Shown here piece by piece: positions 4,125-35,800 of a stretch of DNA of 41,789 bases (its first letter is position 1; each line of letters begins with the position of its first letter). The notes under the pieces are model-generated. The model was not told the origin of the DNA and did no database searches. It was given only the letters and a program-made list of their open reading frames with translations. Origin of the DNA: a virus; IMG/VR virus record IMGVR_UViG_3300037807_000069, positions 1 to 41,789 of that record; one strand, given 5' to 3'. A program made the translations under genes and the position numbers.

Positions 4125-4322
4125 TTACTTCTCCTTATAATGTAATCCATCATTACCATTTTGTCCTATGACATCTATACGTTCGTCATCCCCTTCTTCC
4201 AATTGCCTTGATATAAATTCATCATTACCATAATCGCATCCTTCACTAGCATCTTCTTCGGTGGAATATTCACGTAGAGTATCACCAAATTCGTTACATA
4301 CACAATAGATATAATTAGACAT
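4125..4322 (-). CDS. Hypothetical acidic protein
   Basis: A 65-residue very acidic protein starting MSNYIYCVCNEFGDTLREYS. Two Cys lie close together near the N-terminus and a third later. It directly follows the 65-residue gene from 4519, sharing one base. No family recognised. Confidence 0.55.
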   Translation of the reverse strand: MSNYIYCVCNEFGDTLREYSTEEDASEGCDYGNDEFISRQLEEGDDERIDVIGQNGNDGLHYKEK

Positions 4323-4519
4323 TACATACTATCCATTGAAAATTGATTCGACATAGACTCCTTATAACCAGTTAAGTATTCAGAATAGAATTCTTCATCA
4401 TTAGCACGTGTGCTTGCTTGAGCAGGTTCATTACGTTCGGCATCTAACCATCCAGTAATGTAGAAACGACTCTTAGTTCTTAAATATGTGTCACGTTCAT
4501 TCAATTTTACAACCTTCAT
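4322..4519 (-). CDS. Hypothetical small protein
   Basis: A 65-residue protein beginning MKVVKLNERDTYLRTKSRFY. The ATG at 4519 is preferred because AGGAG sits 6 nt upstream. It is the first gene after the promoter at 4553-4581. The middle (GWLDAERNEPAQAS, EYLTGYKE) is soluble and mixed in charge. No recognised function. Confidence 0.55.
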   Translation of the reverse strand: MKVVKLNERDTYLRTKSRFYITGWLDAERNEPAQASTRANDEEFYSEYLTGYKESMSNQFSMDSM

Positions 4520-4552
4520 ATACAACTCCTATTTTTATCAATCAATACTTAT

Positions 4553-4581
4553 ATTATACCCTATTTAAACATTAATGTAAA
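4553..4581 (-). promoter_or_regulatory. Sigma70-type early promoter
   Basis: Minus strand TTTACA (4576-4581), 17 bp, TATAAT (4553-4558), with the AGGG-TATAAT context. It leads into the small-gene operon from 4519. Confidence 0.75.
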
Positions 4582-4610: not shown

Positions 4611-4636
4611 AAAAAAGCACCGATTAAGGTGCTTTT
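4611..4636 (-). terminator. Rho-independent terminator of the porin gene
   Basis: On the minus strand AGCACC, loop TTAATC, GGTGCT is followed by a run of six T. It lies about 20 nt after the stop of the porin-like gene and before the promoter at 4553-4581, so it separates two transcription units. Confidence 0.85.
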
Positions 4637-4656: not shown

Positions 4657-5523
4657 TTAAAATGTTACGTTAATCTTTGCAGTTGTAACACCATCAACAT
4701 TCTCTGTCTTAGAGTGACCCAAAGTCCAAACACCACGTGTCAACTCACCAACTAAAGTAGTAGCATCGTTCTTATCAATGTACTTACCAGTTACTAAACC
4801 AACAGTAGTAGCAGTTGATACAACAACACCAGTTACGTCTTTACCATTAACTGCGTTTGTAATATCACCAAGGATACCGTCGTCTTGAGTAATACCAGCA
4901 GTATCATTAACATCAACCATAACAACAGTTGCGTTCACACCACCAATCGTAGCACCAACAGAACCAGCAGTATTAGTGCCAGTTGTAGTCACTTGACGTT
5001 CAGCATTAACTTCTAAACCACCAACAGTAGCAGAAGCAGATACATAACGGTTTGAGTTAGAAGCGTTTTGTACGTTAAGATCAACACCAGCAACTGTTAA
5101 AGATGCATCAACAGTAGCATTACCGTCGCCAGATGCTTGACCAACTGTTACACCAGCAATACCTGCAGCATCAAACGCAACTTCCATTTGATTAGTTACA
5201 GCAGAAGTTGCTTGCATTAGACCAGCACCATTTTGTGATTTGTAGTTACCACCTTTGAAAGAGATGCCTTCAATAGCAGACTCAATATATACTTGGTTAG
5301 CAGTTACATTAGAACCACCAGTTAAGTTTTCAAACTTAGCAGTAACACTTGTACCTGCGTCGTTAGTTCCAACCATAGTGATGTCTAGATCTTGTGCATA
5401 TGTTGCAGCACCTGGATTGCCATCAGAGATAGTACCTTCGTAGTCGCCAGTTAAAAAGAAACCTGCAGAAGCAGTTGTAGTGATTGTAGTTGCAGCAATT
5501 AATGCCATTATATTTTTATTCAT
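4657..5523 (-). CDS. Phage-encoded porin-like outer-membrane protein
   Basis: A 288-residue protein with a classic signal peptide, MNKNIMALIAATTITTTASA, and predicted cleavage after ASA before GFFLTG. The mature chain alternates polar and hydrophobic residues throughout, is rich in Gly, Thr, Ala and Val and has no Cys. It ends KINVTF, an aromatic C-terminal residue as expected for the beta-barrel assembly signal. Together these indicate an outer-membrane beta-barrel of the Gram-negative porin type, smaller than usual trimeric porins. The gene is a single transcription unit with early and late promoters upstream and an intrinsic terminator after it, which is typical of a moron. Possible roles are superinfection exclusion by receptor replacement, altered permeability, or receptor mimicry. 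A secreted virion fibre is the main alternative. Confidence 0.75.
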   Translation of the reverse strand: MNKNIMALIAATTITTTASAGFFLTGDYEGTISDGNPGAATYAQDLDITMVGTNDAGTSVTAKFENLTGGSNVTANQVYIESAIEGISFKGGNYKSQNGAGLMQATSAVTNQMEVAFDAAGIAGVTVGQASGDGNATVDASLTVAGVDLNVQNASNSNRYVSASATVGGLEVNAERQVTTTGTNTAGSVGATIGGVNATVVMVDVNDTAGITQDDGILGDITNAVNGKDVTGVVVSTATTVGLVTGKYIDKNDATTLVGELTRGVWTLGHSKTENVDGVTTAKINVTF

Positions 5524-5608
5524 TTTTATTTCCTATATCTGTCTTCCGTTAAAAAAGGGGGAAGAACTAAGCCCTTGTAAAATCAATATTAATGTTTTAT
5601 TATATTGT

Positions 5609-5616
5609 TATTTATA
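5609..5616 (-). promoter_or_regulatory. T4-type late promoter TATAAATA
   Basis: An exact TATAAATA on the minus strand, about 86 nt before the porin start codon and just downstream of the early promoter -10. The porin gene could thus be expressed both early and late. Confidence 0.55.
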
Positions 5617-5620
5617 TTAT

Positions 5621-5649
5621 ATTATACTCTAAAAACGTCCAAAAGTAAA
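5621..5649 (-). promoter_or_regulatory. Early promoter of the porin gene
   Basis: Minus strand TTTACT (5644-5649), 17 bp, TATAAT (5621-5626). The predicted leader is about 90 nt and contains a TCTTCC/GGAAGA hairpin before the AGGAAA ribosome site. Confidence 0.75.
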
Positions 5650-5695: not shown

Positions 5696-6316
5696 CTACT
5701 TTTTAACGATAGAACTGTTAAATGCTATACTCAGGCGTTCCTCGCCGTCGACATCACCCTGTTGGACGAAATGCCATAACCAAGCAGGGAACACGCAAAG
5801 CGAATCTTCTTCTGCAAAAACTTTATATTGTCTCATAGTGATTTGATTAACTTCACCTCTAGCATCATCTGGTATCGAATTGATGCTCGCCCTTGGCATG
5901 TCCAAAATCGATAGATACGATTTTTTATGTGTTTTGGGATAATATACAGCAACTAAACAATTCTGAGGATGATTATGCGGATAAGAAATTTCCCTATTAC
6001 AAGAATAGTTGATCCAATAATTGTCAATTTTTTGAACATAATCGTCAGACAATTCCAACATTTTATGAGTTTCGTCGAATGCTTCCTCAACCCTCCTCAC
6101 CAAAATCTTCATTGATTGAGGAAACCCCCTATATTCTTCCCCGAGTTCGAGCACACCGGCGGTTTGGCCAATTTCGGTTACCAACTGCGTCTTTCTAGAA
6201 TCGTCATTAATATAATCGATCAATTCTTCTCTTTCTGATAATGTTAGGTTGTTCTCGACATGGATCACAAAGTCTGAGAATATTAACTTCATATTTAATT
6301 CTTCTGGATTTATCAT
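5696..6316 (-). CDS. 2OG-Fe(II) oxygenase family protein (Oxy_5-like)
   Basis: A 206-residue protein resembling the 2OG-FeII_Oxy_5 family. Visible landmarks are NYWINYS at 99-105, the proximal iron-site segment YPHNHPQN with H114 and H116, the distal H182 in FPAWLWHFVQQ, and R194 in RLSIAFN for the 2-oxoglutarate carboxylate. Such enzymes hydroxylate amino acids, sugars or other small molecules, and the substrate here is unknown. The ATG overlaps the TGA of the small Cys protein before it (ATGA), so it belongs to the glycosyltransferase operon. A role in tailoring a surface sugar or a virion protein is therefore plausible. Confidence 0.7.
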   Translation of the reverse strand: MINPEELNMKLIFSDFVIHVENNLTLSEREELIDYINDDSRKTQLVTEIGQTAGVLELGEEYRGFPQSMKILVRRVEEAFDETHKMLELSDDYVQKIDNYWINYSCNREISYPHNHPQNCLVAVYYPKTHKKSYLSILDMPRASINSIPDDARGEVNQITMRQYKVFAEEDSLCVFPAWLWHFVQQGDVDGEERLSIAFNSSIVKK

Positions 6317-6471
6317 TTCTTAGAGGTTGGAGAGGTTCCTCTCTTACTATATTCAACACAATGTCGGGTAATCTCCAGTGGTGGATATATTGGACACCCA
6401 CCTTTGAATCCGCGAATACACGTTGTACATAAATCTGTTGTTGGATTAACGAATCTATCAGGTTTTATCAT
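6313..6471 (-). CDS. Small Cys-rich protein
   Basis: A 52-residue protein starting MIKPDRFVNPTTD. It has CTTC, then C in GGCPIYPP, then HC in TRHCVEY. Four Cys and one His suggest a small metal-binding fold. Both ends overlap neighbours in ATGA fashion, so it is a coupled gene between the large glycosyltransferase and the 2OG oxygenase. It may be a small partner of that oxygenase, but this is inferred only from position. Confidence 0.5.
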   Translation of the reverse strand: MIKPDRFVNPTTDLCTTCIRGFKGGCPIYPPLEITRHCVEYSKRGTSPTSKK

Positions 6472-8138
6472 TTGCTACTCACCGTTATGTCAATATACCA
6501 TTTATACCATTTACGGTACAATTCCTTTCGTGCTTCTTTATCATCGAGTTTAACTGCATCGTATGTAAAGTCTAAATCGTTTATCTTACCTTGTATCACA
6601 GCACCTTGATAATCACACTTACCAAAACATACTACACTTGCATCGTGTAACATTGCTTCTTGACCAGTTCCTGAATTAATCACATACGTTGATACTGCTT
6701 TAGGGATAGCATCGTGTATAGACACATCATTCGTATATGCCACGTTAGTGTATTTACTTATAATGTCAAACAACGGTTGCATTGCTCCAAGGTTTACGGG
6801 ATGCCCTTTGAATAGTATCATCGGTTTATCTTCACCCTCGTCTGCCCATTCACATAATGATGTAACGAATTCTTCAACACTAATATCTGAGTGCCACTTA
6901 ATAGTTTCATCGTGAGGTAATTGTAGAGGAACAAAGATAAACGGTTTAGGTAGATCCAGTTCCATCGATTGAGGTTGAGCAAACTTAGAACCACCTGCTT
7001 TAACATATTCTGCTAACTTATCGAATGATGTTCCGCAAGTTTCAATCTCACTTGGTTTGAATGTATTAACATACTCAGCACCACCTGCCCAACCTAATGG
7101 ATCTACCGTGAACAACCAAGGGAATACAGTCTGCATATAATATAGTGTGTTATCATTACCACCGAAGTTGTGTTTCTCTACGTGTGGCACATACATCTTA
7201 CACTCATCACTAAAGTAATTCTGAATAGTTTTATTAAACATCCATCGTGGGGATTCAATAATTATCGTTTTATTCTTAACAAATTGAATGAGTACATTAT
7301 TCCAATGAGTTCTGATTTCAGGTAGAGGGTTGTTATTAGCAACCTCAAGTCCAAACTTCTTGAATGGGATGTCTAGTCTTGGTTTAAGGATAACCGTATC
7401 ATATGACTTCATTTCTTCTAGTCTATGATTGTACGATTCCTTTTGCTCAACATACACAGGGTTGTCATACTTTCTCGGACCTTTACCAGTCCAGATAGTT
7501 GTGCCTTCAATAAATTCCCAATCCATAAACTTGCTATCAAACTTATGCACTTGGTCATCAGGTAGATTACCTAATACTCTAGACAATGCAATCTGGTCAA
7601 CAAACCATTGCATAGGCAACTTACTGATTTCTTCAGCAACTGCTTCAGCATACTTCAAACCGTTTTGGTTATAATATACTGCACCTGCTGCGACCCTAGT
7701 TCCTTCTTGTTCCCATCCTTGAGTTCCATCTAAAGGTTCTCTTGGGAAATATCCTACTGCTTTCTTAGGGAAGTCAAACCTATTCATTATGACACCATCA
7801 ATGTCAAGGATTAATACTTCACCTGCTGAACGAATAATGGTTGGTGCTATTAAAAATCTTAGACAAGCATAGTAAGATCTAATCATTCCATCATTGCCAT
7901 TGAATGGTTGTTGGTTAATTTCTAAATCATTAAATGACATAGTTAATCTTGCCATTTTAGTAGTCGCACTTAATACACCTGCTAATGCTAATACTTCGTC
8001 AGTTGGATTAACTACGTGCATATGGACATCTTGATTTGCATCATCAGCAGAGTAAACAAATGCTGGACCATGCTCAATAAAATAAGCACTATCGCAAGCA
8101 GCCATTACAACTGGACTAGTGGGAAGTTCTCCGTACAT
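6468..8138 (-). CDS. Two-domain glycosyltransferase with KpsC-like C-terminal domain
   Basis: A 556-residue protein. The N-terminal half (to about 230) contains a strand ending in the metal-binding motif D112-I-D114 (ILDIDGVIMN), typical of GT-A transferases. The C-terminal part (about 395-530) resembles the Capsule_synth family (KpsC/LipB): PFIFVPLQLPHD at 399, a K-GHP motif at 444-447, and INSGTGQEAML near 487. In capsule systems this family adds beta-Kdo. The middle region is unassigned. It begins one base before the end of the GT8-like gene. Together they suggest synthesis or modification of a surface or virion glycan, with the acceptor unknown. Confidence 0.65.
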   Translation of the reverse strand: MYGELPTSPVVMAACDSAYFIEHGPAFVYSADDANQDVHMHVVNPTDEVLALAGVLSATTKMARLTMSFNDLEINQQPFNGNDGMIRSYYACLRFLIAPTIIRSAGEVLILDIDGVIMNRFDFPKKAVGYFPREPLDGTQGWEQEGTRVAAGAVYYNQNGLKYAEAVAEEISKLPMQWFVDQIALSRVLGNLPDDQVHKFDSKFMDWEFIEGTTIWTGKGPRKYDNPVYVEQKESYNHRLEEMKSYDTVILKPRLDIPFKKFGLEVANNNPLPEIRTHWNNVLIQFVKNKTIIIESPRWMFNKTIQNYFSDECKMYVPHVEKHNFGGNDNTLYYMQTVFPWLFTVDPLGWAGGAEYVNTFKPSEIETCGTSFDKLAEYVKAGGSKFAQPQSMELDLPKPFIFVPLQLPHDETIKWHSDISVEEFVTSLCEWADEGEDKPMILFKGHPVNLGAMQPLFDIISKYTNVAYTNDVSIHDAIPKAVSTYVINSGTGQEAMLHDASVVCFGKCDYQGAVIQGKINDLDFTYDAVKLDDKEARKELYRKWYKWYIDITVSSK

Positions 8139-35422: not shown

Positions 35423-35499
35423 TGGTAGCAGGACTTGGATTTGAACCAAGGACTTCCAGGTTATGAGCCTGGATTTCTACCCGACTGAATTACCCTGCA
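35423..35499 (-). tRNA. tRNA-Met (CAT), initiator-like
   Basis: A 77-nt cloverleaf with encoded CCA. The acceptor is TGCAGGG with TCCTGCT, leaving a T1-T72 mismatch as in initiator tRNAs (C1-A72 in E. coli). The anticodon loop CTCATAA is on a CCAGG/CCTGG stem, and the T arm is CTTGG-TTCAAAT-CCAAG. Length and loop layout match tRNA-fMet position by position. The anticodon stem has A-T, G-C, G-C at 29-31/39-41 instead of three G-C pairs, so an elongator role is not excluded. Confidence 0.85.
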
Positions 35500-35508
35500 A
35501 TAATTTGG

Positions 35509-35800
35509 TGGAGGTTCATTTGGTTATAAGGATGAACCTGCCTAATTCCTCAAATCACACTATGCCTATCAGGCTGCGATTGCGTAAGTATCTGCGTTTG
35601 CGTTTACTTTGGGTCTTACAACTATTTACCTTCTGTCACCTAGTCGATTCTAAATCAACCCCATTAAGGAATACACTACACAGTGGGGGAGGATGTATAA
35701 TGTATTCCTTGGTGGAGTTGGTGGGATTCGCACCCACGTGTTAAATGACTCCAGTCAATAGTAAGTGGTAAATACTCTGATTAAATCATTTCCTTACCAA
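35509..35800 (-). ncRNA. ssrA: Circularly permuted (two-piece) tmRNA
   Basis: The gene reads acceptor piece first. The T arm GTGGG-TGCGAAT-CCCAC (35721-35737), acceptor 3' strand CAACTCC (35714-35720), then A and CCA ending at 35710. A spacer hairpin (AGGAATACA/TGTATTCCT) follows, then the coding piece with acceptor 5' strand GGGGTTG (35656-35662). The two strands pair over 7 bp and include G3-U70, the alanine identity pair. GGGGTTGATTTAGAATCGAC matches the conserved tmRNA 5' domain. The tag frame (35569-35601) reads ANADTYAIAA then TGA TAG, with the stops in a GCC/GGC hairpin as in helix 5. GGTGAC/GTCATT can form helix 2. It rescues stalled ribosomes with SmpB. Outer ends are approximate. 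Confidence 0.88.

Follow-up and report, generated by a model that had tools for sequence, protein, structure and literature searches.

The window analyzed here, a virus record of 41.8 kb (41,789 nucleotides), carries on its minus strand a gene for a predicted outer-membrane porin (4657..5523, ATG start, 288 aa). The product is predicted to comprise a signal peptide (approximately residues 1–20) and a mature 18-stranded barrel (residues 21–288) that closes on a C-terminal Phe. The Sec-type signal peptide was recognized by eye: the N-terminus, MNKNIMALIAATTITTTASA/G, is a hydrophobic stretch ending in ASA/G. The chain finishes in ...AKINVTF, with the terminal aromatic residue used by the BAM machinery, and Phe is likewise the last residue in all 24 complete members of the family described below. 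The mature chain of 268 residues has tight turns, is beta-rich and is rich in Thr and Val, and hydropathy alternates along its predicted strands more than in shuffled sequences (p = 0.002). Thus, the signal peptide, the beta-alternating mature chain and the terminal Phe, which an earlier sequence-only reading had offered as marks of an outer-membrane barrel, are all present.

Transcription of the porin gene

The gene is preceded by a phage early promoter of the sigma-70 type, TTTACT-17-TATAAT (5621..5649, minus strand). This is an exact copy of an extended motif, AAAAACTTTACTT-N16-TATAAT, which occurs 10 times in the window (at 5621, 16442, 16497, 28353, 31205, 34229, 36217, 38652, 39740 and 40935) against 0.08 occurrences expected. 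The closest relatives, L006, L007 and L037, have both promoter boxes without a single base change. Near-consensus sigma-70 sites precede several other members, matching at 12/12 positions in, for example, L018, L019, L021, L028 and L029, and the sigma-70-like sites of some members score no higher than shuffles. On the 3′ side lies an intrinsic terminator (4611..4636, minus strand), a 10-bp stem followed by a T7 run (z = −3.2). In every homologue that has downstream sequence (23/23, mean z of −3.9), the gene is followed by a hairpin, in most cases backed by a T run. As judged from these sequence features, the early promoter of the porin gene is real, and so is the insulated early transcription unit, since the promoter motif is enriched, its boxes are conserved and terminator hairpins follow the homologues. 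The stand-alone unit put forward earlier therefore stands as regards its early promoter and its terminator.

Two further elements ascribed to this unit fared less well. The 5′ leader (5524..5600, minus strand) contains a ribosome-binding site (TATAGGAAA) and closely resembles the leader of contig L025 (GGGCTTAGTTCTTCCCCC...GGAAGACAnATATAGGAAATAA). The hairpin claimed for it was not recovered, as the window's leader has no fold better than chance (z = +0.65). Across 24 members the mean folding score is z = −0.97, and clear hairpins are confined to certain subgroups, for example TGTTGCAATTCTGCAACA in L018/L019/L021. The other element is TATAAATA (5609..5616, minus strand), an octamer match to a possible T4-type late promoter. 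All eight copies in the window are on the porin strand, compared with 3.1 per strand expected under a first-order Markov model, 200 runs of which gave as many as 11. Besides the porin's own copy, five (36685, 27809, 22711, 19180 and 16970) lie 33–43 nt ahead of ORF starts, one (36200) is about 78 nt before an ORF start and one (36792) falls within an ORF. Because the porin's own copy is 93 nt upstream of the gene start, and because the three closest relatives retain the core TAAATA and lack the exact octamer, the late promoter is unproven. The motif is indeed present at 5616–5609, as the sequence-only reading had it, but its function as a late promoter is not borne out by conservation of the octamer or by copy numbers, which fall within the Markov range. 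Late expression of the porin is possible, and dual early and late control is only plausible.

Predicted fold and family

Folding the porin as a single sequence was uninformative (pLDDT 37). When given an alignment of 25 family sequences, AlphaFold2 predicted 18 antiparallel beta-strands over residues 21–287 that form a closed barrel (pLDDT 79.8, pTM 0.68); pLDDT across its five models runs from 54 to 80, and with only 25 sequences aligned the strand number may be off by two. The model is thus a closed, even-stranded barrel of the 16–18 strands seen in solved porins. Its best matches among solved structures (Foldseek) are OccK8/OprE, MOMP, a Rhodobacter-type porin and OmpU, with E values of 2e-6 to 2e-5. 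VIA-align superposes it on MOMP and OccK2 with Z about 20 over 264–272 residues, and against PDB porins overall Z is 18–20 over ~265 residues. The outer-membrane barrel proposed from the sequence alone is therefore upheld by prediction, and on the strength of this model we regard a porin-fold outer-membrane protein as very probable.

The predicted surface loops are distinctive. Apart from the two longest, L3 (residues 95–109, after strand 5) and L7 (residues 206–227, after strand 13), they are very short, mostly 2–9 residues. With surface and periplasmic sides assigned by the usual porin orientation, the surface loops vary less than the strands (mean entropy of 1.01 vs 1.32 bits, Mann–Whitney p = 0.002), a comparison made within this family alone. 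Loops L1, L7 and L8 stand out. L7 (NDTAGITQDDGILGDITNAVNG, codons at 4843..4908, minus strand) is the most conserved long loop, at a mean of 0.84 bits against 1.32 bits in the strands. In bacterial porins, surface loops are usually less conserved than strands. Of the 25 aligned members, 24 have a mature chain with a net charge between −9 and −25 and one, L044, has +1; this acidity suggests that the predicted channel prefers cations. Short surface loops that vary less than the strands, together with an acidic mature chain, make a conserved channel, probably selective for cations, a likelier reading than a variable shield. Together, loop conservation and acidic charge suggest a conserved path for a ligand or solute, not a surface shaped by an arms race.

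We found no convincing match to the porin in Pfam, NCBIfam, PHROG, PDB sequences or INPHARED (50,697 phage records). None of 20 members scanned matched the Pfam porin families (Porin_1, Porin_4, OprD, OprB and others) even at E ≤ 1, and Porin_4 is absent from the window. Scans of IMG/VR with growing alignments recovered 40 loci encoding about 25 distinct proteins, 42–71% identical to that of the window. A marine bacterial donor had been expected, but screening 84,980 species genomes of bacteria and archaea for two conserved motifs yielded none: the sole match was L025, a 3.8-kb phage-like contig in a Bacteroidetes MAG. This contig carries phoH along with gene kinds that flank the porin in viral contigs, for instance a gene of 65 aa and one for a small secreted protein. 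The porin family is missing from 60 relatives of the MAG. We read L025 as phage DNA mis-binned in that MAG. By this two-motif scan, which remote host relatives could escape, the family is apparently restricted to phages and common to several of their lineages. These results also support the earlier view that porins are rare as phage genes.

The members evolve under purifying selection (dN/dS of 0.15–0.38). The 20 records searched have one intact copy each, except that two copies are cut off by contig ends and one contig (L005/L024, around 6001–6857) holds a frameshifted, broken copy, through either assembly error or decay. Carrier lineages mostly cluster on the porin gene tree yet do not form one branch each, so transfer of the gene between phage lineages is possible.

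Carrier phages and their presumed host

The window's T4-type DNA polymerase is about 50% identical to cyanomyovirus polymerases, and the record also encodes a ribonucleotide reductase and a 2OG-Fe(II) oxygenase. Upstream of the porin lies a surface-sugar cassette: a TylF-type methyltransferase, a second methyltransferase, a weak GT8 match and a KpsS-like protein, followed by the oxygenase. A surface-modifying cassette also surrounds the porin in L007/L008/L037/L038. Downstream is a small gene (4322–4525, minus strand) of a type encoding 65–67 aa, with a promoter-like site at 4581–4553; it belongs to a cluster of eight across the compared loci. Elsewhere the window, itself T4-like, carries a permuted two-piece tmRNA (35569–35762, minus strand; Rfam RF04321, 67.7 bits against a cut-off of 47) whose tag is read by ARAGORN as ANADTYAIAA and which adjoins a tRNA-Met (35423–35499, minus strand). 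This tmRNA may bear on host identity.

The porin is carried by T4-like records, recognized by a T4-type polymerase or by topoisomerase II, by records that combine a PolA-type polymerase with SbcC, and by a lambda-J-type siphovirus. A search of the porin-bearing records for gp23 gave no match anywhere, and the controls were likewise without a match. Among 33 porin-bearing records, dsrA scores above the cut-off in 7 and dsrC in 12 (13 at E ≤ 0.001); the window's own 41.8-kb piece has neither. Other genes in these records include iscU, iscA, a TusA-like gene, purM and dnaK. The family thus occurs on viral contigs with sulfur-oxidation genes, as would an auxiliary metabolic gene of SUP05-type phages. 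Phages carrying dsrA or dsrC have been assigned to SUP05/Thioglobus hosts (PMC8190135, PMC4164917). Since these genes occur in porin-bearing records, the window's kin, and they alone, point to a SUP05-type sulfur oxidizer as its putative host.

In two contigs only, the porin adjoins an ammonium transporter gene: in L021 amtB follows it directly, and in L012 an Amt gene whose product is 90% identical to that of L021 lies two genes upstream, with one small ORF between. One virus record holds a tandem dsrA pair (L015:6628-9370, L016:6628-9370), and each of the two genes scores over the DsrA equivalog cut-off. Small exported proteins with a high content of Asn, Trp and Phe, in SNWGPF-type repeats or NNSWDKPW, are encoded repeatedly within a few kilobases of the porin, mostly in dsr-bearing phages (L003:4239-4583, L003:7053-7466, L016:6022-6435 and L030:6041-6418), and the three tested gave no family match.

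Proposed role of the porin and comparison with known systems

Computed here are the signal peptide, the predicted barrel fold, the early promoter and terminator, the family, its selection and its phage context. The explanation that we hold best overall, with a little more confidence than doubt and on the basis of a modeled fold, is an early, phage-encoded outer-membrane porin that would alter permeability. The setting would be marine gammaproteobacteria of the SUP05 type. Host RNA polymerase would transcribe the gene alone from the phage early promoter, Sec would presumably export the precursor, and BAM would fold it by way of its C-terminal Phe strand. The product would be an 18-stranded, short-loop, acidic channel, probably trimeric and cation-preferring, if it does act as a pore. 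It would supplement or replace host porins while synthesis of the host envelope shuts down, and in this way the uptake of small solutes and cations, ammonium for example, might be kept or changed to the benefit of virus production. Taken by itself, uptake or permeability as the porin's main role has about an even chance. Loop conservation, acidic charge and the Amt neighbor in two relatives lean toward it, and the metabolic genes found in porin-bearing records and the published OMZ cassette that pairs a porin with amtB (PMC8115048) also speak for the permeability porin.

Superinfection exclusion or receptor replacement, in which the phage porin displaces a host porin used by rival phages and presents loops too short to bind, is a serious but less probable role. 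The early promoter suits it, as do the very short surface loops other than L3 and L7, the spread of the porin over several phage lineages that presumably have hosts in common, and its position, in the window as in L007/L008/L037/L038, within a cassette for surface modification. The window's surface-sugar cassette leans toward exclusion or surface remodeling, and it fits remodeling as well as uptake. A receptor replacement or exclusion of this kind has reportedly been proposed for the Lc porin of the lambdoid phage PA-2. However, virulent T4-like phages halt host synthesis soon after infection, so replacement of a stable porin would be slow. Moreover, exclusion factors are often small and fast-evolving, whereas the loops of this porin are its conserved part. 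Judging each role separately, we lean to uptake ahead of exclusion, and we give some other role a smaller share still.

Two further readings are far less probable. An over-expressed barrel could weaken the outer membrane as infection ends and so aid lysis; the late-type TATAAATA motif would suit this, and in lambda-J-type relatives the porin lies beside the terminase and small proteins, some with membrane-like segments. Such a role is improbable, as relatives conserve the early promoter but not the late motif, and conservation of the loops, with the acidity of the chain, speaks for a specific channel. More improbable again is a virion protein, that is, a beta-rich fiber or decoration, despite the beta-rich composition with its Thr and Val: complete members have a signal peptide and a terminal Phe, the promoter is early, and the barrel fold matches porins. 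We reject a tail-fiber reading of the gene on the strength of the signal peptide, the early promoter and the predicted barrel fold.

An early-expressed permeability porin, then, is the reading that we carry forward. Given an early porin gene whose roughly 25 relatives are spread over three or more kinds of phage, often alongside sulfur-oxidation genes, porin-bearing viruses probably alter either the infected cell's uptake or the attachment of other viruses to it. More tentatively, these minimal 18-stranded porins, phage-restricted and without a cellular counterpart, may have passed among unrelated phages of marine sulfur oxidizers and may effect an early takeover of permeability through a conserved selective channel (with a conserved L3 and a conserved, acidic L7), as the envelope arm of a viral sulfur and nitrogen program. 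Enzymes have been the main focus of studies on how marine phages reprogram metabolism. If the reading is true, a conserved channel common to T4-like, PolA/SbcC-type and lambda-J-type phages would mean that the outer membrane itself is targeted in infected sulfur-oxidizing cells. The porin is a testable gene for how virocells obtain nutrients or keep out rivals.

It is useful to set this family beside known porins. The bacterial porins OccK/OprD, Campylobacter MOMP, Rhodobacter porin and OmpU share its predicted topology, long loop at the L3 position, signal peptide and C-terminal Phe. Against OccK and MOMP, however, the phage porin shows 5–12% identity, and its mature chain has 268 residues compared with 354–403 in the matched chains. 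It also differs from bacterial porins in surface loops that are mostly 2–9 residues long and more conserved than the strands, and in its lack of a Pfam or NCBIfam match. Phage-borne porins as such are already known, among them PA-2 Lc and NmpC of a cryptic prophage. Those two sit on temperate phages and were copied recently from OmpC-type genes of the host, whereas the present family sits in T4-like and other phages and has no found cellular parent. What is new, as far as the model allows, is an unannotated, apparently phage-restricted, short-loop, 18-stranded porin family spread over several lineages of phages associated with sulfur oxidizers; our literature search found no description of it, and it appears undescribed. 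On virus contigs from oxygen minimum zones (OMZ), a glnK-amtB-ompL cassette encodes a porin for which no substrate is known (PMC8115048). By description, that OmpL-like porin is similar, being marine, viral, a predicted beta-barrel near an ammonium transporter, and part of a cassette with a predicted promoter and terminator; it has been traced to Flavobacteriales (PMC8115048). Finally, two BFVD entries from phage records, A0A6J5L4P1 (“OmpC porin”) and A0A8S5S2G8 (“OprO/P”), also have predicted porin folds (Foldseek E of 4e-6 and 2e-5). At a query-normalized TM of 0.41–0.47 and 11% identity, they and the porins described here are different families.
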